A program made the position numbers and the translations under genes. From NCBI GenBank assembly GCA_902792005.1, contig CADAXW010000009.1:1-42468 (forward strand): a stretch of 42,468 nucleotides of DNA, in the 5' to 3' direction. The DNA comes from an uncultured Lachnospiraceae bacterium (GTDB lineage: Bacteria; Bacillota; Clostridia; Lachnospirales; Lachnospiraceae). Positions 20,923-32,157 of the stretch are shown in pieces. Below the pieces are notes generated by a model. It searched no databases, was not told the DNA's origin, and saw only the letters and a list, made by a program, of their open reading frames with translations. The number at the start of each line of letters is the position of its first letter. Position 1 is the first letter of the stretch.

Positions 20923-20927
20923 TTGTG

Positions 20928-22346
20928 TTATGCCTCAATACACTCAACCTTAATGATATTTGTATTTCCGCTGCGGCCGTCCATCAGTCCGCCGGTCAGA
21001 ACTACATTGTCTCCGGGCTTCAGGCCCAGCACCCGGGTGGCTTCCCGGATGGAATTGGAGAACATGGATTCCATGGAATCGTAGATCCCGCAAAGCATGG
21101 GGGTTACGCCCCAGGAGAGGTTCAGCTTGCGCCATACCTTTTCCGAGGTGGTCATGCCGATGATGTCCACCGGGCAGCGGAAGCGGCTGACCATGCGGGC
21201 GGTCCTTCCGGAAAGAGAATTCACAATGATACATTTTGCATTTACATCGATGGCCATGGAGCAGGTGGAGTGGGATACGGCATCCAGATTGTTGCGGATC
21301 TCCACATCCATTGCCTTGAATCGCTTTTTGTAATGGATGGTCTCCTCGGTTGCCTCGATGGTCCGGATCATGGCCTGCAGAGCCTCCAGAGGATACTTTC
21401 CGGAAGCGGTCTCGCCGGACAGCATGACAGCAGAGGTTCCGTCATAAACCGCATTCGCTACGTCGGAAACCTCAGCCCGGGTGGGACGGGGCTTCTCGAT
21501 CATGGACTCCAGCATCTCCGTTGCAGTGATCACGCGAGTGCCCAGCATGCGGCATTTTGTGATGAGACGCTTCTGGATGGCAGGAACCTCGTAGGCAGGG
21601 ATCTCCACACCCAGGTCGCCGCGGGCGATCATGATGCCGTCTGCGATCTCGCAGATCTCATCAATGTGATCTACGCCGGAGCGATTCTCGATCTTGGCAA
21701 TGATGTCCACGTCCTTTCCGCCGTTCTCGTCCAGGAAGGTCCGAAGGGACTGCACATCCTGCTTGTTGGAAACAAAGGATGCGGCCACATACTCGATCCC
21801 CTGCTGGATGCCGAACAGAAGGTCCGACTTGTCCTGCTCACTGAGGAAGACCTGGTTTAATACCTTGTTGGGGAAGTTCATGCTCTTCCGGTCGGAGAGA
21901 ACGCCGCCGGAGATACATTTGCAGATGGCATCATTACCCTTCAGGTCGGTAACCTCAAAGATGACCAGACCGTTGTTCACCAGGATCCTGTCCCCTACGT
22001 TCAGATCCTGAACCAGATGGTCGTAGCTGACGGAAACCCGCTCGTTGGTTCCCTCCACGTCCTCGGTGGTAAAGATGAAGGTGTCGCCTTCGCCGATGGT
22101 CACCTTGTGATCTGCAAAGGTCTTGATCCGGTACTCGGGACCCTTGGTATCCAGCATGATGGCTACGGGAGCGCAGAGCTTGGTGCGCACCTTCTTGATA
22201 AGATCGAATTTCTTTTTATGCTCCTCATGGGTTCCATGGGAGAAGTTCAGACGGGCCACATTCAGGCCGGCGCGGACAAGGGCTGTGAGCATCTCCTCGT
22301 TCTCGCTGGCGGGTCCGATGGTTGCTATGACTTTCGTTTTGCGCAT
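20928..22346 (-). CDS. pyk: Pyruvate kinase
   Basis: A 472-residue glycolytic enzyme converting phosphoenolpyruvate and ADP to pyruvate and ATP. It starts MRKTKVIATIGPAS, the typical N-terminus, then LNFSHG, MLDTKGPEYR, the signature IIAKIENRSGVDHIDEI (catalytic Lys), MIARGDLGVEIP, and TRAEVSDVANAVYDGTSAVMLSGETA. The C-terminal allosteric domain is present; the extra PEP-utilising-like domain found in some Firmicutes enzymes is absent. GGAGGA precedes the ATG at the right distance and a consensus-like promoter lies 36-64 bases upstream. It is inserted, on the opposite strand, between the two MoxR operons. The gene reads in full without defects. Confidence 0.97.
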   Translation of the reverse strand: MRKTKVIATIGPASENEEMLTALVRAGLNVARLNFSHGTHEEHKKKFDLIKKVRTKLCAPVAIMLDTKGPEYRIKTFADHKVTIGEGDTFIFTTEDVEGTNERVSVSYDHLVQDLNVGDRILVNNGLVIFEVTDLKGNDAICKCISGGVLSDRKSMNFPNKVLNQVFLSEQDKSDLLFGIQQGIEYVAASFVSNKQDVQSLRTFLDENGGKDVDIIAKIENRSGVDHIDEICEIADGIMIARGDLGVEIPAYEVPAIQKRLITKCRMLGTRVITATEMLESMIEKPRPTRAEVSDVANAVYDGTSAVMLSGETASGKYPLEALQAMIRTIEATEETIHYKKRFKAMDVEIRNNLDAVSHSTCSMAIDVNAKCIIVNSLSGRTARMVSRFRCPVDIIGMTTSEKVWRKLNLSWGVTPMLCGIYDSMESMFSNSIREATRVLGLKPGDNVVLTGGLMDGRSGNTNIIKVECIEA

Positions 22347-22533: not shown

Positions 22534-22699
22534 GATGATAGAATGAAAGGTAAGTGAGGGGTCGCTCATTTACGTGACAGTTGATAACATCAAAAATAAT
22601 TATAATGCGACGGCGCGAAATAAATGGTAGAATAAACAACACAGGCAAGCCGGTTTCCGCCGGGTCGGAACGGGCAGAGCAAAGGAAATGAGGAGAATT

Positions 22700-23632
22700 A
22701 TGGCAGACGTTCAGAAGATCAAATTAGTTCAGGACAATGTGAATAAGGTCATAAAGGGAAAGGAGCACGTGGTCCGCAAGGTGCTTGCTGCGGTGATCGC
22801 AGGAGGACATATCCTGATGGAGGATATCCCCGGAGTAGGAAAAACCACGCTGGCTACCGCATTTGCGAGAGCCCTTTCTCTGGATTATAAGCGTGTGCAG
22901 TTTACGCCGGACGTTCTTCCCAGTGATATCCTGGGTTTCTCCATGTATAACAGCGCCACAAAGGAATTCGAGTATCGCGCAGGTTCGGTTTTCTGTAATC
23001 TCTTCCTTGCGGACGAGATCAACCGTACCTCCCCGAAGACCCAGTCCGCGCTGCTGGAGGTCATGGAGGAGGGGACGGCTACCGTGGACGGCGTGACCCG
23101 GAGACTTCCGGATCCCTTCGTGGTGATCGCCACCGAGAACCCCTACGGTTCCTCGGGTACCCAGCTTCTGCCGGAGTCCCAGCTGGACCGTTTTATGGTA
23201 TGTCTTTCCATGGGCTATCCCATGCATGAGGATGCGGTAAAGATCCTGAAGGGAAATGCGCTGAACCCCATCTCCACTGTGGAAGCAGTGCTGGGTGTGG
23301 AGGAGTTGATCGGACTTCGCCAGGAGGCGAATAATCTTTACGTCCATGACGTGATCTATGAATACATCGTAAATCTGGTGGAAGCAACCAGAGCAAATGA
23401 GCTCTTCTCCATGGGGGCCAGCCCCCGGGGAACCATTGCCATGCTGAAGATGGCGAAGGCAATGGCGGTCATTGAGGGAAGAAACTATGTGACTGTAGAG
23501 GATGTGCAGTCCGTCACAAGGGATACCCTGGGACACAGAGTCAAGCTGGGACAGAGAACCCGGGCACAGGGCATCGATATGGACGGTGCGCTCCGCATGC
23601 TGCTGCAGATGGTACCGGCACCGAGAAGCTGA
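22700..23632 (+). CDS. MoxR-family AAA+ ATPase, copy 2
   Basis: A 310-residue AAA+ protein with a canonical Walker A, GVGKTT (in MEDIPGVGKTTLA, about residues 34-46), Walker B LFLADEINR (about 97-105), sensor 1 in VIATENPYGSSGTQLLPESQLDRF (about 138-161), and GASPRG in the C-terminal lid. It differs from the MoxR at 15421, whose P-loop is GLAKTT, so the two are paralogues rather than a recent duplication. The start at 22700 is preferred to ATG 22688 because AGGAG precedes it, though spacing is short. It heads a four-gene operon with DUF58, transglutaminase and DUF4230 genes, a common grouping. Confidence 0.93.
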   Translation: MADVQKIKLVQDNVNKVIKGKEHVVRKVLAAVIAGGHILMEDIPGVGKTTLATAFARALSLDYKRVQFTPDVLPSDILGFSMYNSATKEFEYRAGSVFCNLFLADEINRTSPKTQSALLEVMEEGTATVDGVTRRLPDPFVVIATENPYGSSGTQLLPESQLDRFMVCLSMGYPMHEDAVKILKGNALNPISTVEAVLGVEELIGLRQEANNLYVHDVIYEYIVNLVEATRANELFSMGASPRGTIAMLKMAKAMAVIEGRNYVTVEDVQSVTRDTLGHRVKLGQRTRAQGIDMDGALRMLLQMVPAPRS

Positions 23633-23656
23633 GGAAAAGAGGAAACGAGGAAACGA

Positions 23657-24697
23657 TTGAAGACCAGGGTTCACGCGTCGAGAATAATTGCATATTTGGT
23701 ACAATACGGCCTGGTCGTTTTCATGTACTGGTTTTTACGGGCACATTTCTTTTTGATGTTTTTGGCGATCATGAGTATTGTACCTTTTTTGTCGATCCTG
23801 TCGGTCTTTGTTCTCAGGCGGAAGCTGGAGGTTAAACTCGAGGCTCCGGAACGGGAGCAGAGCAGGGATGATCTGGGCTTTCTTCATCTTCGGATCAAGA
23901 ATCCTACATGGATCGTATCGCTGGATGCGAATATCCTGCTTCGCACGGAGAGCTGCTTCTATGAGGATGTGGCGGATACGAAGCTGTCCGTTCCCATCCA
24001 GATGCATTCCACCTATGAGCAGATGATCCCTCTCAGATACACGAGAAACGGTATGTACCGCTATCAGATGGCAGGGTTCACCGTGCGTGATTTTCTGGGA
24101 CTGGTTTCTCTTGCCAAGGATGTGGATTCCAGTACAGAGGTGGTGGTCCTCCCGCCCACGGAGGGACGTGCGGTAGGAGACCTTTCGGATATGAGCCGGG
24201 GAATGACGGAGAGTGAAGAGACCATGAAGCGTGGCCATGATTTCTCCGATGTCTCGGACGTAAGAGAGTATATCCCGGGAGACAAGCTGATGTCCATTCA
24301 CTGGAAGCTTTCCGCCAAGCGGGATATCCTCATGGTGAAGGACCGGGTATCCATGTCGGATCAGCAGATGGTGATCCTGGCAGAGCTGTCCGGAGACCAT
24401 GCCATGGTGGATGAGATCCTGACCCTGACCTACGGTGTGTGCATGTCCTTTGTCCGGGAGCAGGTCTATATCCGGCTTCTGTGGTGGAGTGAGGGAAGGT
24501 TCTCTTTTGAGGAAAGACAGATCATGAATAAGGAATCTCTGAAGGAGGCCTTTTCGGATCTTTATTATGACAAGATCTATGAGGATACGGACAAGACCCG
24601 GGAGCTGATGCAGAGCATCCATCCGGAGTTAAAAGCCTACGTGCATATCTGTAACAGAAATGGAGAGGCCGATGCCGAAGTTGTTGAACAGGACTAA
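23657..24697 (+). CDS. DUF58 domain membrane protein, copy 2
   Basis: A 346-residue protein. Two N-terminal hydrophobic helices (about 12-27 and 32-54) anchor it. A beta-rich region follows (about 60-160), then the DUF58 signature GHDFSDVSDVREYIPGDKLMSIHWKLSAKRDILMVKDR (about 194-231). The start is TTG 23657, with GAGG seven bases upstream; no better start exists. It is distinct from the anchorless DUF58 protein at 16427. It overlaps the transglutaminase gene by 26 bases. As in related loci, it probably forms a membrane complex with the transglutaminase-like protein and is remodelled by MoxR; this is inference. Confidence 0.88.
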   Translation: MKTRVHASRIIAYLVQYGLVVFMYWFLRAHFFLMFLAIMSIVPFLSILSVFVLRRKLEVKLEAPEREQSRDDLGFLHLRIKNPTWIVSLDANILLRTESCFYEDVADTKLSVPIQMHSTYEQMIPLRYTRNGMYRYQMAGFTVRDFLGLVSLAKDVDSSTEVVVLPPTEGRAVGDLSDMSRGMTESEETMKRGHDFSDVSDVREYIPGDKLMSIHWKLSAKRDILMVKDRVSMSDQQMVILAELSGDHAMVDEILTLTYGVCMSFVREQVYIRLLWWSEGRFSFEERQIMNKESLKEAFSDLYYDKIYEDTDKTRELMQSIHPELKAYVHICNRNGEADAEVVEQD

Positions 24698-27155
24698 ACA
24701 ACTGAATAAGGCAGAACCGAAGCTGACGAAGGAAGAGAAACGAAGGATCCGTCGTTCCGCCTGGCGGGATGAGGATCTGAGAGAGGTTCCTCTTGCGGAG
24801 GGCGTGATCATTGATCAGTCGGTGTATCAGATCGCGGAGAATCGCTTCTGGACCCTGATCATTAAGGGCTTCGTGGTATATCTCATCACGGCAGGAGCCA
24901 TTGGCTGCTACCTGTCAGCCATGGAGATCCTGTTCTCAGAGATCATCTTCCACCTGGTGATCCTGTCCACGGCCATTCTCTGCGCCTGTCTGTATCACAG
25001 CTGGAAGTCCGAGAACCTGGGTTATCTGATCTTTTTTGCGCTCTATGCGCTGACGCTCTTTGCGTTCCGGGATTATATCAACAGCGGCTTCTACGCCATC
25101 GTCAATGATACGAATGAGTATGCGGCCATGTTCTTTGATACCGAAGGTCTGCAGCATTACAACGAGCGGATCAGCAACCGGTATGCAGCCGTGACGGTAG
25201 CCATCTGTCTCATTGGCATCGCGGTGAACATCCTGCTGAACAACTATATCCTGCGCCGCGCCAGATATATGATCGCGGCCTTTTTGGGCGTGACCGTCAA
25301 CCTTATCCCGCTCTACATGGAGAAGGAGCCGGAGCTTCTTTACTCTCTGATGCTGATCGCGGGACTGTCCATGACATATATCCTGAAATGTGGACGACAT
25401 TTCCACTTAAGCAGGAATGACCATATCTTCAAGAGGCGAAAGCAGGGCCTGTCCTACGGCCTGGATTTCAAGTCTCTCCGACATGGGATGCTGCTGACGC
25501 TTCTGCTTGTTCTTGTGGTGGCCACAACCGTGAATCTTGTGCGCCCCAGAAGTCAGTATGAATACTACCGGACCAGGAACAAGTATAAGCAGGCCACGAA
25601 AGAGGTGATCCAGAATGTGATCATGCTGGGCTTTGCCGGTCTGTGGAACTGGTATCCCAACGACGGCGGTCTTGCCAGCGGTAGTCTTGGAGGGGTATCC
25701 TCCATCCGGCTGGACTATCAACCGGATCTGAATATCACATTTACGCCATATTCTTATGATACACTGTACGTGAAGAATCTCATCGGACAGACCTACGTCC
25801 CCGTGGAGAACTACTGGAACCAGCCGGAGAATTACATGGATTCTGCCGAGCAGAATCTCTATGAGGCGGAGGCCCTGAAGAAGGCCTACGAGTCCGGGAA
25901 GGATCAGACGGCCAAGGGCAAGATGATCATTAAAAATGTAGCGGCGCCCCAGAAGAATTACATGCCGTATTATACCGGGGACATCCCGGGGGAGATCCTT
26001 GTAAAGAATTCCAAGGAAGTGGTATACTATCCTCTGTTTTCCCAGGAGAATCTGGAAGAGGAGGAAGTGAAGGCGGCACAGAATTATCTGGATGTGCCTG
26101 AGGTCAACCGGGAGGAGATCCGGAAGCTTGTTCGGAGTGCAGGGATCACAGAAGAAGATGATCCCATGCTTGCAGTTCAGAAGCTGAGTGAGTATTATGA
26201 AAGAGAGATCCCATATACCATCCGGCCCGGGGCAACTCCCTGGCGAAAGGACTTTATCAACTATTTCCTTTCGGATAACCGGAAGGGTTACTGTGCACAT
26301 TTCGCCAGTGCAGCGGTTCTGGCCTTCCGTTCTGTGGGGATCCCGGCAAGATACTGTGAAGGGTATGCGATCTCCTATTCCCAGATCCTCAGTCGGGGCG
26401 AACTGGTAAACGGAGAGAAGTACAGCGATTATTATGACGGATATAACGCCCTGGGTGAGACGGCGGTGATCTCGATCAATGCAACGGATGCCAATGCCCA
26501 TGCCTGGGTGGAGATCTACGTCAAAGGAAAGGGATGGGTCGTGGCCGAGACCACACCGTCCTCCACTCTGGATGCCGATGATGGTACAGCATCCTTCTGG
26601 GAGCAGTTTAACAGCATTTTCGGAGACGGAGATGAGGATAATGCCGAGCGTGAGGGCGGAGGCGGAGGCTTCCGGATTGCCTTCGGTGAAGGAACCATGC
26701 GGATCGTAGCCTACGTGCTGCTGGGCGCCATCGTTCTGGCTCTGCTGATCTTCCTGTTCCTCAGGCTGCTGCCGGTGATCCGTTATCACAGAGCTTACCG
26801 ACGGGGTGACTGGTCGGAGAAGCTGGTGCTCTACTATGGAAGAGCCATGCGGCGGAGACGAAGAGATAAGGGACTTAGGGACTGTGTCAACTACCGGGAG
26901 TCCATGGAATATCTGTATGATAAACGAAGAGGTGCGGCGGTGCCGGATACCGACTGGATGATCTATCGGGAGCCGGTGAAGGTAGATGGCCGAAGGGTGA
27001 ATGCGGAGCCTCTGGAGGAGCTGATCCGTATGCTGGAGCAGGCCGGTTTCTCAAATGTGCCGCTGACAGAAGAGGAGTTCCGACTGGCAATGAAGAGAAT
27101 GGATGAACTGCTGACCGGAGTTCATCAGAATAGTGAGGTGAAGGATGAGAAGTGA
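24672..27155 (+). CDS. Transglutaminase-like membrane protein
   Basis: An 827-residue protein. The N-terminal third has about six to seven transmembrane helices. A large extracytoplasmic region holds a transglutaminase-like core whose triad can be read as Cys541 in KGYCAHFASAAV, His610 in NAHAWVEIY, and an acidic residue at E626 in VVAETTPSS, where Asp is usual. A Gly-rich linker (GGGGG) leads to a final transmembrane helix (about 675-697) and a basic cytoplasmic tail. These proteins act as surface peptidases, acyltransferases or crosslinkers. ATG 24672 is chosen because GGAGAGG precedes it; ATG 24660 is an alternative. It overlaps DUF58 upstream by 26 bases and DUF4230 downstream by 11. Confidence 0.88.
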   Translation: MPKLLNRTKQLNKAEPKLTKEEKRRIRRSAWRDEDLREVPLAEGVIIDQSVYQIAENRFWTLIIKGFVVYLITAGAIGCYLSAMEILFSEIIFHLVILSTAILCACLYHSWKSENLGYLIFFALYALTLFAFRDYINSGFYAIVNDTNEYAAMFFDTEGLQHYNERISNRYAAVTVAICLIGIAVNILLNNYILRRARYMIAAFLGVTVNLIPLYMEKEPELLYSLMLIAGLSMTYILKCGRHFHLSRNDHIFKRRKQGLSYGLDFKSLRHGMLLTLLLVLVVATTVNLVRPRSQYEYYRTRNKYKQATKEVIQNVIMLGFAGLWNWYPNDGGLASGSLGGVSSIRLDYQPDLNITFTPYSYDTLYVKNLIGQTYVPVENYWNQPENYMDSAEQNLYEAEALKKAYESGKDQTAKGKMIIKNVAAPQKNYMPYYTGDIPGEILVKNSKEVVYYPLFSQENLEEEEVKAAQNYLDVPEVNREEIRKLVRSAGITEEDDPMLAVQKLSEYYEREIPYTIRPGATPWRKDFINYFLSDNRKGYCAHFASAAVLAFRSVGIPARYCEGYAISYSQILSRGELVNGEKYSDYYDGYNALGETAVISINATDANAHAWVEIYVKGKGWVVAETTPSSTLDADDGTASFWEQFNSIFGDGDEDNAEREGGGGGFRIAFGEGTMRIVAYVLLGAIVLALLIFLFLRLLPVIRYHRAYRRGDWSEKLVLYYGRAMRRRRRDKGLRDCVNYRESMEYLYDKRRGAAVPDTDWMIYREPVKVDGRRVNAEPLEELIRMLEQAGFSNVPLTEEEFRLAMKRMDELLTGVHQNSEVKDEK

Positions 27156-27783
27156 GCGTAGTGAAAGAGCGGAACGTCGCAGGATCTGGTGGTCCAGCCT
27201 GAATCAGATGACCAGGACCATCATACTGATCGCCATGGCCATTGCCCTGATCATGGGCGGTGTCTGGCTGAAGACCTTCCTGTTCGGGAAGAGTGAACCC
27301 AAGATCACCGCAGATTACATCACCGGGAAGCTGGATGTGGCAAGCGAGCTGACCACGGCGGAGCTGACCTACAACGGTCTGGTCACCTATGAGGACGGAT
27401 CCATTCCCTTCCTGACCAAGAAGGGATTTACCATGAAGTACACCGCTACGGTGAAAGCCGGGATCGACTTTTCCAAGATCGAGGTAAATGTAACGGGTAA
27501 GACCGTGGAGGTGACGCTTCCGGAGGCAGAGGTGCTGTCCTCCCACGTGGATCCGAACACCATTGAATTCTTTGATGAAAGCTTTGCCATCTTCAACTGG
27601 AGAGACAATGAGGATGTAACCCAGGCCATATCCATTGCAGAAGGAGATGTGAAGGCCAACGCCGATATGGACGAGCTGAAGAAGAAATCCGAGGAGCAGG
27701 CGGAGAAACTGATCCGCGGACTGCTGCAGGATGCCATCGGCGAGAGGGAGCTGGTGATCAAGAAGAAGACAGGGGTGGAATGA
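27145..27783 (+). CDS. DUF4230-family membrane-anchored protein
   Basis: A 212-residue protein with a basic N-terminus (MRSERSERAERRR), one transmembrane helix (about 24-43) and an extracytoplasmic domain. The domain pattern matches DUF4230: KLDVASELTTAELTYNGL, YTATVKAGIDFSKIEVNVTGKTVEVTLPEAEVLSSHVDPNTIEFFDE, and a long C-terminal amphipathic helix with DELKKKSEEQAEKLIRGLLQDAIG. The function of the family is unknown. It overlaps the transglutaminase gene by 11 bases and is the last gene of the operon. No clear terminator follows; the next 120 bases are A+T-rich and end in a strong promoter. Confidence 0.82.
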   Translation: MRSERSERAERRRIWWSSLNQMTRTIILIAMAIALIMGGVWLKTFLFGKSEPKITADYITGKLDVASELTTAELTYNGLVTYEDGSIPFLTKKGFTMKYTATVKAGIDFSKIEVNVTGKTVEVTLPEAEVLSSHVDPNTIEFFDESFAIFNWRDNEDVTQAISIAEGDVKANADMDELKKKSEEQAEKLIRGLLQDAIGERELVIKKKTGVE

Positions 27784-27871
27784 TCCGCGCAACATTTTTG
27801 GGAATTGTATATAAAAGTCTGACAACTTAGACAATTATACTTAATTTAATTGAAAATAATCAAGATTTGTA

Positions 27872-27900
27872 TTGACATGTCAAACAATTTGATCTATAAT
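27872..27900 (+). promoter_or_regulatory. Perfect-consensus sigma-A promoter of the large RNA
   Basis: -35 TTGACA (27872-27877), 17-base spacer, -10 TATAAT (27895-27900). Both hexamers are perfect, the only such case in the window. A+T-rich DNA (27836-27871) upstream could act as an UP element. The predicted start is near 27907. Such strength fits a highly expressed stable RNA. Confidence 0.88.
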
Positions 27901-27906
27901 AAGTTT

Positions 27907-28518
27907 ACACTTAACGAGTGAAGATAATCTGCAGCGACACTGCAGAACTACCCCGAATGGTGCGGGGTAAATACGGAGGAAAGGAAGGTAGATAAGGCGG
28001 CCGAAATAGTTTCGGATGCAGTCTCCGGTGGCCGGAGATGGAGCAAGCGGTAAGAGGTCCCGTATTCCGGATAAAAGGATTAATTTTCCTTATGTCAGAT
28101 CTGGATAGATGAATGTTCAGAGTGGTTTTTACCACCACCTGCAGCGGGCAGGCTACCTTTTATTCGAAACAGACTGGATCAGCCAATTCGAAACTTTTTT
28201 TCAGCAAGTCAGAAGAATGATTTATGATGCGACTTAGCATAATTCGTAACTTGTGGATGTGGCAACCTGAATTTACCGATATGCGTCCTGGAAACCGAAA
28301 GGTACAGACGTCGTAAGATGAGATAGGCTGTATAGATATATCATGTAGAAACAGCAAATGGCGGTGATTGGTATCGCAGTAGGTACGGGAACGTAGGTAA
28401 GCGGTTGAACGGTTTTAGATGTGGATCTGCCCGATGGCGTAGGCCTGGTGGGTTCACGACGACAACTTCATAAGAACTTCCGGAGGACATCTACCCGAGA
28501 CAGATGTCCTCCTTTTTT
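27907..28518 (+). ncRNA. Putative large structured non-coding RNA (~610 nt)
   Basis: The stretch after the perfect promoter has no credible reading frame but many self-complementary segments. Local hairpins include CTGCAG/CTGCAG (27929-27945), TACCCCG/CGGGGTA (27949-27969), CCGAAA/TTTCGG (28000-28014), CTCCGG/CCGGAG (28023-28037), GTGGT/ACCAC (28122-28135), CCTGC/GCAGG (28138-28152) and a GAAA tetraloop in ACC-GAAA-GGT (28293-28302). A longer pairing, AATACGG (27969-27975) with CCGTATT (28060-28066), closes a multi-stem domain. It ends in an intrinsic terminator. It lacks the conserved core of RNase P, tmRNA and 6S RNA as I know them, and no group II intron domain V. Size and layout resemble the ornate large classes OLE, ROOL and GOLLD, but I cannot assign it. 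The neighbouring VanZ gene has its own promoter. Confidence 0.72.
28482..28518 (+). terminator. Intrinsic terminator of the large RNA
   Basis: A perfect 11-bp stem (GGAGGACATCT, 28482-28492, with AGATGTCCTCC, 28502-28512), a nine-base loop and six T residues (28513-28518). Confidence 0.93.
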
Positions 28519-28552
28519 GTTCTCTCTTTTTATTCTTTTCCTGAGGGAAGCG

Positions 28553-28561
28553 TGGTATAAT
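28553..28561 (+). promoter_or_regulatory. Extended -10 promoter of the VanZ gene, almost abutting its ATG
   Basis: TGG followed by perfect TATAAT (28556-28561). The ATG starts at 28568, seven bases later, which is where transcription should begin. This predicts a leaderless mRNA. The -35 (TTCTTT at 17 bases) is poor. Confidence 0.6.
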
Positions 28562-28567
28562 ACCCCT

Positions 28568-29083
28568 ATGGAAAAAACGGAAAACAGCAAAAGGGTATAT
28601 ATATTTCGGGGCCTGGTGATCCTGTGGATGGTGGTGATCTTTGTCTTCTCAGCGGCGGACGGAGATGAGTCCTCCAAAACCAGCGGCTGGGTAGGTCGGA
28701 TGATCGGATCCATCCTGCATTCCGACTTTGAGGACTGGACGGAGGAAGAGCAGCAGGCCTATGCAGAGAAGATCGAGTACCCCATAAGAAAAGCAGCCCA
28801 TGCGACGGAGTATGCCGTGCTGGCGCTGCTGTTCTTTGGTGCGCTGACCTTCGAGGGGAAGAAGCGATACATCTTCTCCTGGATATTTACGGTGATCTAT
28901 GCCTGTACGGATGAGTTCCACCAGCTCTTTGTGCCGGGCCGGGCCGGCCGGCTGTTCGATGTGGGTGTGGACAGCCTGGGAGCGCTGGCTGGACTGCTGA
29001 TCCTGGCAGGCTGCCGGGCCCTGTGGCTGAGGCGGAAGAACCGACAGGTTACTCATCCACAATCTCAGAATTCACCTTCGTGA
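28568..29083 (+). CDS. VanZ-like membrane protein
   Basis: A 171-residue protein with four hydrophobic segments (about 12-30, 78-96, 100-120 and 138-158). The VanZ family pattern is visible: FVFSAADGDESS after the first helix, RKAAHATEYAVLALLFFGAL, and CTDEFHQLFVPGRAGRLFDVGVDSLGALAGL, with the conserved EFxQxFxPGRxxxxxDVxxxxxG. VanZ gives low-level teicoplanin resistance in enterococci; most homologues like this one have no known role. No ribosome-binding site lies before the ATG; the -10 TATAAT is immediately upstream, so the message may be leaderless. Its 3' end overlaps the convergent DUF6062-like gene by 35 bases. Confidence 0.85.
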   Translation: MEKTENSKRVYIFRGLVILWMVVIFVFSAADGDESSKTSGWVGRMIGSILHSDFEDWTEEEQQAYAEKIEYPIRKAAHATEYAVLALLFFGALTFEGKKRYIFSWIFTVIYACTDEFHQLFVPGRAGRLFDVGVDSLGALAGLLILAGCRALWLRRKNRQVTHPQSQNSPS

Positions 29084-29879: not shown

Positions 29880-31391
29880 GTGAGACGAAAAATAAAACTC
29901 ATTTTAATCCTCTGTATCAGTATCCTCGGTATTCTCGGGCTCTCAAGCTGTGGTAAGGAGCAGCCGAAGAATACCGTTTTCAGCGTGGATGATCTTAAGG
30001 GGAAGACCATCGGTGTTCAGATGGGTACCACAGGTGACGTCTATGCATCGGAGTATGAGGAGGACGGGTCCGGGACGAAGGTGGAACGATTCCATAAGGG
30101 TGTGGATGCGGTGACATCTCTGAAGCAGGGCAAGCTGGACTGCGTGATCATCGACGAACAGCCGGCGGAGGCCTTCGTGCGCAATAATGAAGATATCGAG
30201 ATCCTGGAGGAGGACTTCGCGCTGGAGGAGTATGCAGCCGTGATCTCCAAAAAGAATCCGGAGCTTCTGAAGCAGGTCAATGAGGCGCTGATGGCCCTGT
30301 TTAAGGATGGGACCATCAACAAGATCATTCATAATTACATCCCGGATGAAACCACGGGAGAAACCGTTCCCTTCCACTATGAGCAGGCGGTGATGACAGG
30401 AGAACCCCTCCGTATCGCCACCAACGCTACATTTCCGCCCTATGAATATTATGAGGGCGGCGAGATCGTGGGTATTGATATCGACATCGCCAAGGCAGTG
30501 GCTGATAAGCTGGGCCGCGTGGTGGTGGTCAGCGACATCGAGTTCGATGCCATTATAAATGCCGTTTCTTCGGGCAAGGCGGACATGGGTCTGGCGGGTT
30601 TTACCGTCACAGACGAGCGGAAGGAGCGGATCAGTTTTACGGAGCCCTATGCCACCTCAAAGCAGGTGATCATTGTGCGGAACGGAAAGGCCAATGATTT
30701 CTGGGGCAATCTCCAAAAGAAAATGTATGATACGCTGGTGAAGGACGGTCGCTGGAAATTCCTGCTGAAGGGCCTTGGAAACACCATGCTCATTACCATA
30801 TGTGCACTGCTGATCGGCTGCTGTGTCGGGTTCCTCCTGGCAATGGTCCGGGTGGCGCATGATAAGAACGGTTCCTTTAAGGTGCTGGATCTGATCGCAA
30901 AGATTTATATCACCATCATCCGCGGAACGCCTATGATGGTTCAGCTTCTGATCATTTACTATGTGATCTTCGCATCTGTGGACCTGAATAAGGTCGTGGT
31001 GGCGATCATCGCATTTGGGATCAATTCCTCTGCTTATCTGGCGGAGGTCATCCGTTCCGGTGTCATGTCCATTGATCCGGGGCAGTTTGAAGCCGGAAGG
31101 AGTCTGGGGCTTGGGTTTGGAACCATGATGCGTTCCGTCATCCTTCCGCAGGCACTGAAAAATGTGCTGCCTGCCATCGGCAATGAGTTCATCTCTCTTC
31201 TGAAGGAGACCTCCATTGCGGGCTACATCGGTCTGCTGGATCTGACCAAGGGAGGAGATATCATACAGAGTCTGACCTACGAACCGCTGATCCCGCTGCT
31301 TCTGGTGGCGGCGATCTACCTGCTTCTGGTCATCATCTTTACAGCACTTGTAAATAAGCTGGAAAGGAGGCTGAAGCGGAATGAGCGATAA
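29880..31391 (+). CDS. Amino-acid ABC transporter: substrate-binding protein fused to permease
   Basis: A 503-residue lipoprotein-permease fusion of the polar amino acid family (GlnPH-like). The signal has a lipobox LSSC at Cys24. Residues 37-154 ([13 protein letters not shown] to INKIIHNYI) match lobe 2 of the usual binding protein; residues 176-267 ([39 protein letters not shown]) match lobe 1, which normally comes first. The order is therefore reversed, and no second lobe 2 follows. The permease (about 285-500) has five helices and the EAA loop [21 protein letters not shown]. The GTG start has GGGGGAGA upstream. It overlaps the ATPase gene by 11 bases. The amino acid transported cannot be read. 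Confidence 0.9.
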
Positions 31392-32157
31392 GAAAAAGAA
31401 GAAGAGGATCGATCCTGACCGTGAGATCCTGATCTCCGTCCATGATCTGAGAAAGAGCTTTGACGGACAGGAGGTGCTGAAGGGGATTAACTTCGTTGTT
31501 CACAGAGGCGAGGTGGTCTCCATCATCGGGCCCTCCGGCTGCGGAAAGTCAACATTGATCCGGTCCCTTAACCTGCTGGAACAGCCGGACTCCGGCTCCA
31601 TCCGGTTTGAGGATGAGGAGATCGTGGGACTTCATGAAAGAGAGCAGAATAAGGTGCGGGAGAAGATCGGTATGGTCTTCCAGCAGTTTAACCTGTTTAA
31701 GAATAAGACCGTGCTGGACAATATCACGCTGGCTCCTGTAAAGCTGGGGCTCATGAAACCGGACAAGGCAAAGGAGGAAGCCATGCGGCTTCTGGAGCGG
31801 ATCGGTCTTGCAGATAAGGCGGCGAACTATCCTGCCCAGTTGTCCGGCGGACAGCAGCAGCGTGTGGCTATCGCAAGGTCCCTGGCCATGAAGCCGGATG
31901 TAATGCTTTTTGACGAGCCCACCTCCGCACTGGATCCCCAGATGGTAAATGAGGTGCTTACCCTGATGAAGGACCTGGCGGCCACAGGAATGACCATGGT
32001 GGTGGTAACTCATGAGATCGGCTTTGCCAGAGAGGTCTCTGACCGTGTGGTTTTTATCGATGAAGGCGTGATCAAGGAGGACGGAAGTCCGGATGAGGTT
32101 TTGAATAATCCGGAAGACGACAGGCTTCGGGATTTTCTCGGAAATGTTCTGAAATAG
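31381..32157 (+). CDS. glnQ: Amino-acid ABC transporter ATPase (GlnQ-like)
   Basis: A 258-residue ABC ATPase energising the importer encoded upstream. Walker A is GPSGCGKST (about residues 50-58), the Q-loop is MVFQQFNLF, the ABC signature is [15 protein letters not shown], Walker B is [12 protein letters not shown] and the switch His is in VVVTHEIGF. The N-terminal extension [15 protein letters not shown] is basic and longer than usual. The gene starts inside the permease gene (11-base overlap) with AGGAGG upstream, so the two are made together. The gene symbol reflects the family; whether glutamine is the substrate is not known. Confidence 0.92.

Follow-up and report, generated by a model that had tools for sequence, protein, structure and literature searches.

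The stretch analysed here (the window) covers 42,468 nt of a contig of an uncultured Lachnospiraceae bacterium (CADAXW010000009.1). Within it, an interval of about 610 nt between a DUF4230 gene (27145–27783) and a VanZ-like gene (28568–29083), both assigned by Pfam, very probably encodes a large folded RNA and no protein (Table 1). An earlier note, made from the letters alone, had described a large structured RNA here, with a perfect TTGACA-17-TATAAT promoter, no convincing reading frame and a clean intrinsic terminator, and our analysis bears out this description. The interval folds to –198.5 kcal/mol as compared with –174.1 ± 5.6 kcal/mol in 20 shuffles (z –4.3), and all 11 complete copies of the RNA, including that of the window, fold below their 40 shuffles each (z –1.86 to –4.75). 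Each complete copy ends in its own hairpin and T-rich stretch, the latter being short in G255 and G269; a simple terminator scan with a stated loop limit of 8 did not list the terminator of the window. No reading frame is conserved between the copies, whose longest open reading frames (ORFs) vary in frame, strand and length. One candidate small protein (MQSPVAGDG...) has a start common to six long forms, but its ends differ; judged by eye on the homologue sequences, with three of the six frames in the ORF listing, it also lacks a visible ribosome site and is missing from the short forms, and it was rejected.

Homologues were identified in 61 genomes of the same genus. The extended blastn matches are led by G296 (86% identity) and G297 (75%), and the complete RNA is found in 11 of the 61, our own genome (G000) counted. 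Two further genomes enter the counts through their promoter and position alone: G298 holds the start of the RNA on a contig that ends inside it, and G308, recognised as a carrier by the promoter motif alone, ends inside the promoter and is in none of the RNA alignments. The core and the 3' part were each made into a covariance model. That of the core (R1; 10 carriers used) returned 11 of the 61 genomes at E ≤ 2.1e-8, with the next match at E 0.05, and that of the 3' part (R2; all 11 complete copies used) returned the identical 11 at E ≤ 2.8e-14, with the next at E 3.5e-5. As the models match their own building sequences by construction, the independent gain is the lack of further members and the recovery by R1 of G272, which had been excluded as misaligned from alignment A2 and from the model. 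The remaining matches in the genus are weak, four for R1 (E 0.05–0.85; G266 read by eye) and 14 for R2 (E 3.5e-5 and above; six read by eye). Beyond the genus, R1 gave no credible match among 396 other genomes of the family (four weak, E 0.016–0.053, all protein-coding in appearance by eye) or among 391 other genomes of a sample of the order drawn largely from the same family (six weak, E 0.015–0.041, two read by eye). R2 likewise gave no credible match in the family, its 27 weak ones being spread over 26 genomes outside the genus, with four of the 27 read by eye. Of the 41 weak R2 matches in all, the ten that were read have the appearance of ordinary terminators or coding sequence; the one in G303 includes CCGAGA, lies in sequence that looks coding and lacks a T-tract. 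In addition, blastn against 250 family genomes yielded, besides our own, 12 genomes with single matches of 20–40 bp (E 2.9e-4 to 0.0093), left unread, and within our own genome it found the RNA locus only, all else being at E 1.3 and above.

Neither 50,697 phage records nor 72,556 plasmid records contain a match, and a pattern scan of viral contigs gave one match, judged by eye to be due to chance. The same kind of scan of named genomes returned 19 stretches, comprising 10 known homologues and nine apparent chance matches in unrelated genomes. Nine of the named homologues are records of metagenome-assembled or uncultured genomes, several with rumen or ruminant-stomach labels, and the tenth is Lachnospiraceae bacterium AC2029, which we take to be a cultured rumen isolate and for which no papers were found. 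Its single-contig genome carries a compact RNA of 373 nt, about 60% of the length in the window, with a core identical in kind. Comparison of these genomes shows the predicted RNA to be present in one group of Lachnospiraceae species, at one fixed place.

The proposed fold is supported by base pairs that change on both sides. For the core, the model-fitted alignment of 11 sequences, which leans towards its own model, has such changes in 12 of 25 pairs with 96% of the cells paired, and the first alignment, of 10 sequences, has them in 10 of 25. Among 500 shuffles, which ignore the relatedness of the sequences, none is as high on four of five measures in either alignment; the fifth measure, further pair types, is equalled by 35 (10 sequences) or 11 (11 sequences) of the 500. 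Hairpin P5 and the terminator together show both-side changes in 21 of 27 pairs, a level not reached in 500 shuffles on any of the five measures. The terminator stem varies freely in sequence, with both-side changes in 11 of its 11 pairs, and the outer pairs of P5 are often broken (79.7% of helix-1 cells paired). Slid controls gave 1–2 pairs for the core and 4–10 for the 3' part. These controls, together with changes of the type CGTC/GAACG to GAAGTC/GAACTTC in the distant trio G269, G272 and G282, make chance an unlikely source of the covariation. Comparison shows that selection for base pairing maintains the predicted core and 3' part. The covarying homologues that the earlier note had named as its check are found by blastn within the genus.

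Two elements are conserved in sequence rather than in pairing. In P4, 24 of 29 positions are invariant across 11 species; its five pairs are all invariant, and its stem is consequently without covariation support and is drawn from complementarity alone. The terminator loop reads CCCGAGA in 10 of 11 species, and ATTGAAA in G274. The loop looks free, since a UCUCGGG-like partner (UYUYGGG, YUYGGG or UYUYGGK) is missing within eight of the 10 RNAs that have CCCGAGA. The exact 9-mer complement of the loop, ATCTCGGGT, was not found in the 42-kb window, no genome-wide target search having been made.

At the 5' end, hairpins HP1 and HP2 have both-side changes in five of 12 pairs over nine sequences, as high as in one of 500 shuffles (61 of 500 for further pair types), in an alignment (A4) that includes G298, as did the first MAFFT alignment, and from which G274, G269 and G272 were omitted by judgement. 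They are followed by a conserved linker, GAAAGGA(A/C)GGTA, which varies in G255 and G272; another linker, AAACT(T/G)(C/A)ATA, is conserved with some variation. A long-range helix, GGTAGAT/ATTTACC, is probable: its duplex energy is equalled by three of 500 shuffles, with mismatches in some species and a duplex in G283 that avoids GGTA. The pairing AATACGG/CCGTATT, proposed earlier to close a multi-stem domain, is present in both its strands (27970–27976 and 28060–28066) but is not conserved as a closing pair, the duplex reaching –8.8 kcal/mol here and –0.1 to –5.4 kcal/mol for the matching segments in five other long forms. A GAAA tetraloop, for which no position had been given and which we took to be CC-GAAA-GG at 28295–28302, does not hold up as a functional feature, GAAA occurring there in our own species only among the 11 (alignment A6).

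The length of the RNA ranges from 358 to 632 nt over the 11 complete copies, by the presence or absence of a peripheral domain of about 150–250 nt by our estimate (alignment A5). This domain is present in G000, G296, G297, G287, G264 and G274, its start is also seen in the incomplete G298, and it is missing in G255, G283 and the distant trio. Its long-range helix is 99% paired over six sequences, with both-side changes in two of 16 pairs (11 of 500 shuffles). A local hairpin, CCGAAA/TTTCGG, forms in the six long forms and competes with this helix; it was set aside with no compensatory pairs versus two for the helix, on weak evidence. In the DUF4230 protein tree, G283 sits between the long-form G274 and G264 (forks 96/89 and 98/99). 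At least one loss of the peripheral domain is therefore likely, because G283 nests between long-form species; G308 adjoins G274 in this tree, and the length of its RNA lies beyond the contig end.

Table 1. Predicted features of the RNA gene and its promoter, in window coordinates
Feature	Position	Strand	Remarks
Distal promoter element GTCWGACAA	27817–27825	+	54–55 nt 5' of TTGACA
Promoter TTGACA-17-TATAAT	27872–27900	+	12/12 consensus positions
Predicted RNA gene transcript	27907–28518	+	about 610 nt; from promoter, terminator, homologues and covariation; 5' end deduced from the promoter
5' hairpin HP1	27928–27946	+	joint HP1/HP2 covariation
5' hairpin HP2	27949–27969	+	not clear in G269 and G272
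Purine-rich linker GAAAGGAAGGTA	27979–27990	+	near-invariant in close and distant homologues
GGTAGAT, 5' strand of proposed long-range helix	27987–27993	+	partner ATTTACC at 28271–28277
Peripheral domain (long forms)	27998–28269	+	long-range helix includes 28009–28017/28186–28194
Core domain	28282–28394	+	112-nt core, 12/25 pairs covarying; P1 28284–28290/28386–28393; P1b about 28294–28295/28382–28384; P2 28301–28305/28371–28375; P3 28308–28312/28360–28365; P4
P4 hairpin GCTGTATAGATATATCATGTAGAAACAGC	28327–28355	+	most conserved element of the RNA
P5 hairpin	28421–28457	+	inner GGC/GCC region nearly invariant; 10/16 pairs with both-side changes
Intrinsic terminator	28482–28518	+	11-bp stem 28482–28492/28502–28512, 9-nt loop, TTTTTT

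Specific elements are also conserved in and upstream of the promoter. The –35 box continues into TTGACATGTCnnnCAA, which forms a proximal GTCnnnCAA element, and TTGAC[A/G]TGTCnnnCA is present in all 13 carriers, the contig of G308 stopping after the proximal GTCnnnCA. The distal GTC[A/T]GACAA is exact in 12 of 13 genomes, the exception being G297 with GACTGACAA, in which GTC has become GAC; its offset from TTGACA is –55 in 11 genomes and –54 in two. The two GTCnnnCAA elements are spaced 61–62 bp apart, and the pair is kept in 12 of 13 genomes. Exact matches to TTGACATGTCnnnCAA number seven in six genomes, six at the RNA locus and one in G269, where the exact 16-mer occurs its one time outside the locus in a coding-looking stretch. 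Allowing up to one mismatch gives 22 sites in the six genomes, as against 20 with the reversed control; those with one mismatch that were read, in G000 and G264, fall within sequence of coding appearance. The two elements look like operators, and we infer a dedicated transcription factor for the pair. Such a regulator would probably be a repressor, because the proximal element shares sequence with the –35 region, in a promoter that is close to perfect.

The place of the RNA is fixed with respect to DUF4230. In a comparison between species of adjacent genes only, the RNA or its promoter lies directly behind the DUF4230 gene in 13 of 13 carriers, and the downstream gene of the complete copies is VanZ in nine of 11 and a different gene in G269 and G282, that of G282 reading to us by eye as a putative threonyl-tRNA synthetase. 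A DUF4230 protein search matched 51 of the 61 genus genomes, and the 13 best matches (our own included, at least 62% identity) are the 13 with the conserved promoter directly behind. A tree was made for 27 of the 51 matching genomes, leaving out G270, G262, G293 and a further 21 whose matches were weaker. A single change in this tree accounts for the 13 carriers (support 62/92; so in 64% of 200 bootstrap trees), with which a single origin of the RNA would fit, though it is not strongly proven. DUF4230 might be functionally tied to the RNA; among the DUF4230 papers listed in a literature search, none is about an RNA. In the window, genes for a MoxR-type ATPase, a DUF58 protein, a transglutaminase-core protein and DUF4230 stand in a row (22688–27783), and an amino-acid-type ABC transporter lies at 29880–32154, in which the solute-binding domain, matched in two stretches, forms one protein with the permease; an ATPase gene follows.

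The absence of an assigned class, as first noted, persists after comparison with catalogued RNAs: none of the 4227 families of Rfam 15 matches at E ≤ 10 over the 951 bases 27700–28650, the models of OLE, ROOL and GOLLD included, and none reaches its gathering score in the whole window. RNase P models likewise give no match at the RNA locus, in keeping with the RNase P core motifs not having been seen there. The RNase P RNA of our own genome lies at G000:C4:48926-49263 (E 3.5e-105), and one is found elsewhere in five of six genomes (E ≤ 6.8e-102), not in the 80%-complete G297. The tRNAs, phage and OLE-associated protein gene that the earlier note did not see are not found here either: tRNAs number zero in the window, matches in phage records zero, and Pfam assigns none of the ten neighbouring proteins to an OLE-associated family (that of 20925–21857 having no family), the rest of the genome being unsearched. 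Nine homologue loci gave 10 weak Rfam matches at E ≤ 5, all below gathering scores; eight lie outside the RNA and two touch it on the opposite strand, in G287 (E 2) and at the G272 terminator (E 1.8). The motifs of a 2017 survey of 224 motifs are said to be largely in Rfam. Among the papers listed in PMC searches, none describes the RNA by its title or abstract, and a human-microbiome survey with thousands of candidates (PMC8040213) lay outside the comparison.

Clostridiales-1 (RF01699) was considered as a homologue and rejected. Its match at the G272 locus scores 30 bits against a cut-off of 48 and is located 3' of the terminator, the RNA of the window has no match to it, and the family is dispersed, multi-copy and unlinked to the RNA. 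It shares the genus with our RNA and differs from it in having up to 25 matches per genome (E ≤ 1), in many genomes without the RNA; under stricter filters none at E ≤ 1 was found in the carriers G272 and G296. Filed as an sRNA, Clostridiales-1 acts as a dispersed repeat in this genus, matching at E ≤ 1 in 51 of 61 genomes and above cut-off in 46, with up to 25 in G278 and some in tandem (G301:C5); examples are found in G278, G285 and G304 (loci L120–L149). Separately, the sequence directly 3' of the RNA terminator in G272 (L091 1844–1922) forms a long inverted repeat whose tip carries GCGAGCTTGCTCGC, and a similar inverted repeat follows the RNA in G282. The repeat may be a mobile, palindromic relative of Clostridiales-1.

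Our preferred interpretation, to which we assign a probability of roughly 40%, is that the locus encodes a clade-restricted new class of regulated, trans-acting structured RNA that would be RNAIII-like in its working. A dedicated transcription factor, probably a repressor, would bind both GTCnnnCAA elements; on a signal the RNA would be strongly made, and it would then act in trans. In this scheme the almost invariant P4 hairpin would bind a protein or small ligand, the exposed terminator loop CCCGAGA would pair with a target RNA, comparable to the C-rich loops of RNAIII on a long multi-hairpin scaffold, and the peripheral domain would be an optional extension. Speaking for it are the covariation of the core, P5 and the terminator, the clear gap that both models leave between the 11 genomes and all others (mostly their own building sequences), the fixed place behind DUF4230, the promoter elements, the invariant P4, the kept and apparently free terminator loop on a freely varying stem, the lack of a conserved ORF and the mRNA-binding C-rich loops of RNAIII. 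A regulator acting in trans is favoured because the downstream gene varies, each copy has its own terminator and the RNase P RNA lies elsewhere. The staphylococcal agr RNA, RNAIII, is made from a regulated promoter. It is similarly long, with many hairpins, a highly conserved 3' domain and C-rich loops, of which loops 7 and 13 bind mRNA (PMC2837412). The paired conserved elements here may mark a regulated promoter as well. The two RNAs differ in that no agr protein is found among the ten neighbours by Pfam and no peptide frame is conserved; RNAIII was compared by description, the sequence comparison being the Rfam scan only.

Several points weigh against such a regulator. Its mechanism is inferred, its transcript is predicted, and its target and protein partner are hypothetical. 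A possible partner of CCCGAGA exists inside the RNA in G269 and G272, and in G274 the loop is altered while the rest of the RNA is kept. The irregular P4 hairpin may just as well form a tertiary or catalytic motif. Furthermore, the RNA is not found in 48 of the 61 genus genomes and therefore has no core function in the genus.

The regulator is closely trailed by a second, still tentative reading, a structural RNA serving as a ribonucleoprotein scaffold or ribozyme-like machine, in which P4 and the linkers would form the tertiary core, OLE-like in working and not in descent. It is suited by a core that is nested and closed through the long-range helix P1, by the invariant P4, by the conserved linkers and by a peripheral domain that can be absent, much as domains can in structural RNAs of modular build; the narrow distribution does not suit it, nor does the lack of an obvious partner gene among those adjoining (MoxR-type ATPase, DUF58, transglutaminase, DUF4230 and VanZ, with DUF4230 adjacent in 13 of 13 and VanZ next in nine of 11 by the neighbour comparison). 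OLE RNA is likewise about 600 nt long, structured and found in Gram-positive bacteria, its biochemical function being described as unresolved; it differs in giving no Rfam match here and in its associated protein, absent from the ten neighbours. An RNA-only homo-oligomer joined by kissing loops, in the manner of ROOL or GOLLD, we consider improbable: the pattern of the terminator hairpin counts in its favour, but the conserved CCCGAGA is not self-complementary, a UCUCGGG-like partner is missing from eight of 10 RNAs, and the window has neither a tRNA nor a phage match. ROOL and GOLLD are large, ornate orphan RNAs, and ROOL is rumen-associated by name; they are located in phages or prophages, often near tRNAs (PMC12286853), whereas our RNA has a fixed locus without a tRNA or phage match. 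The label 'ROOL-like' given earlier is not supported: the RNA has neither a match at E ≤ 10 nor phages or tRNAs around it, and its core is of its own kind. The alternative offered with it, a new class, survives. Position upstream of VanZ in nine of 11 species would suit a cis-acting leader or attenuator for the gene that follows, a reading made very unlikely by the other genes in G269 and G282 and by the hairpin and T-rich stretch that end all 11 complete copies. Least likely of all is a diverged known RNA (RNase P, OLE, ROOL, GOLLD, tmRNA or Clostridiales-1). Its size near OLE and ROOL and the weak Clostridiales-1 match near one homologue are outweighed by the empty Rfam search, with every homologue-locus match below gathering score, by the RNase P RNA located elsewhere and by a Clostridiales-1 match that falls 3' of the terminator in a multi-copy, unlinked family.

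A bolder proposition, which we hold to be possible yet doubtful, is a new large bacterial RNA class that would be active in its own right, through a core around the invariant P4 that is a ribozyme, senses a ligand or forms a ribonucleoprotein. It would be under a dedicated transcription factor, have arisen within one rumen Lachnospiraceae clade and be unrelated to catalogued RNAs. Few bacterial RNAs of this size are known to have an evolutionarily supported fold, and several of them have no known function. The compact 373-nt form of AC2029, with the same core, would bring studies of structure, partners and deletions within practical reach, and the natural short and long forms let one ask what the optional domain adds. 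The case also shows how one clade alone can carry a large structured RNA, and surveys that demand a broad distribution would miss such an RNA.
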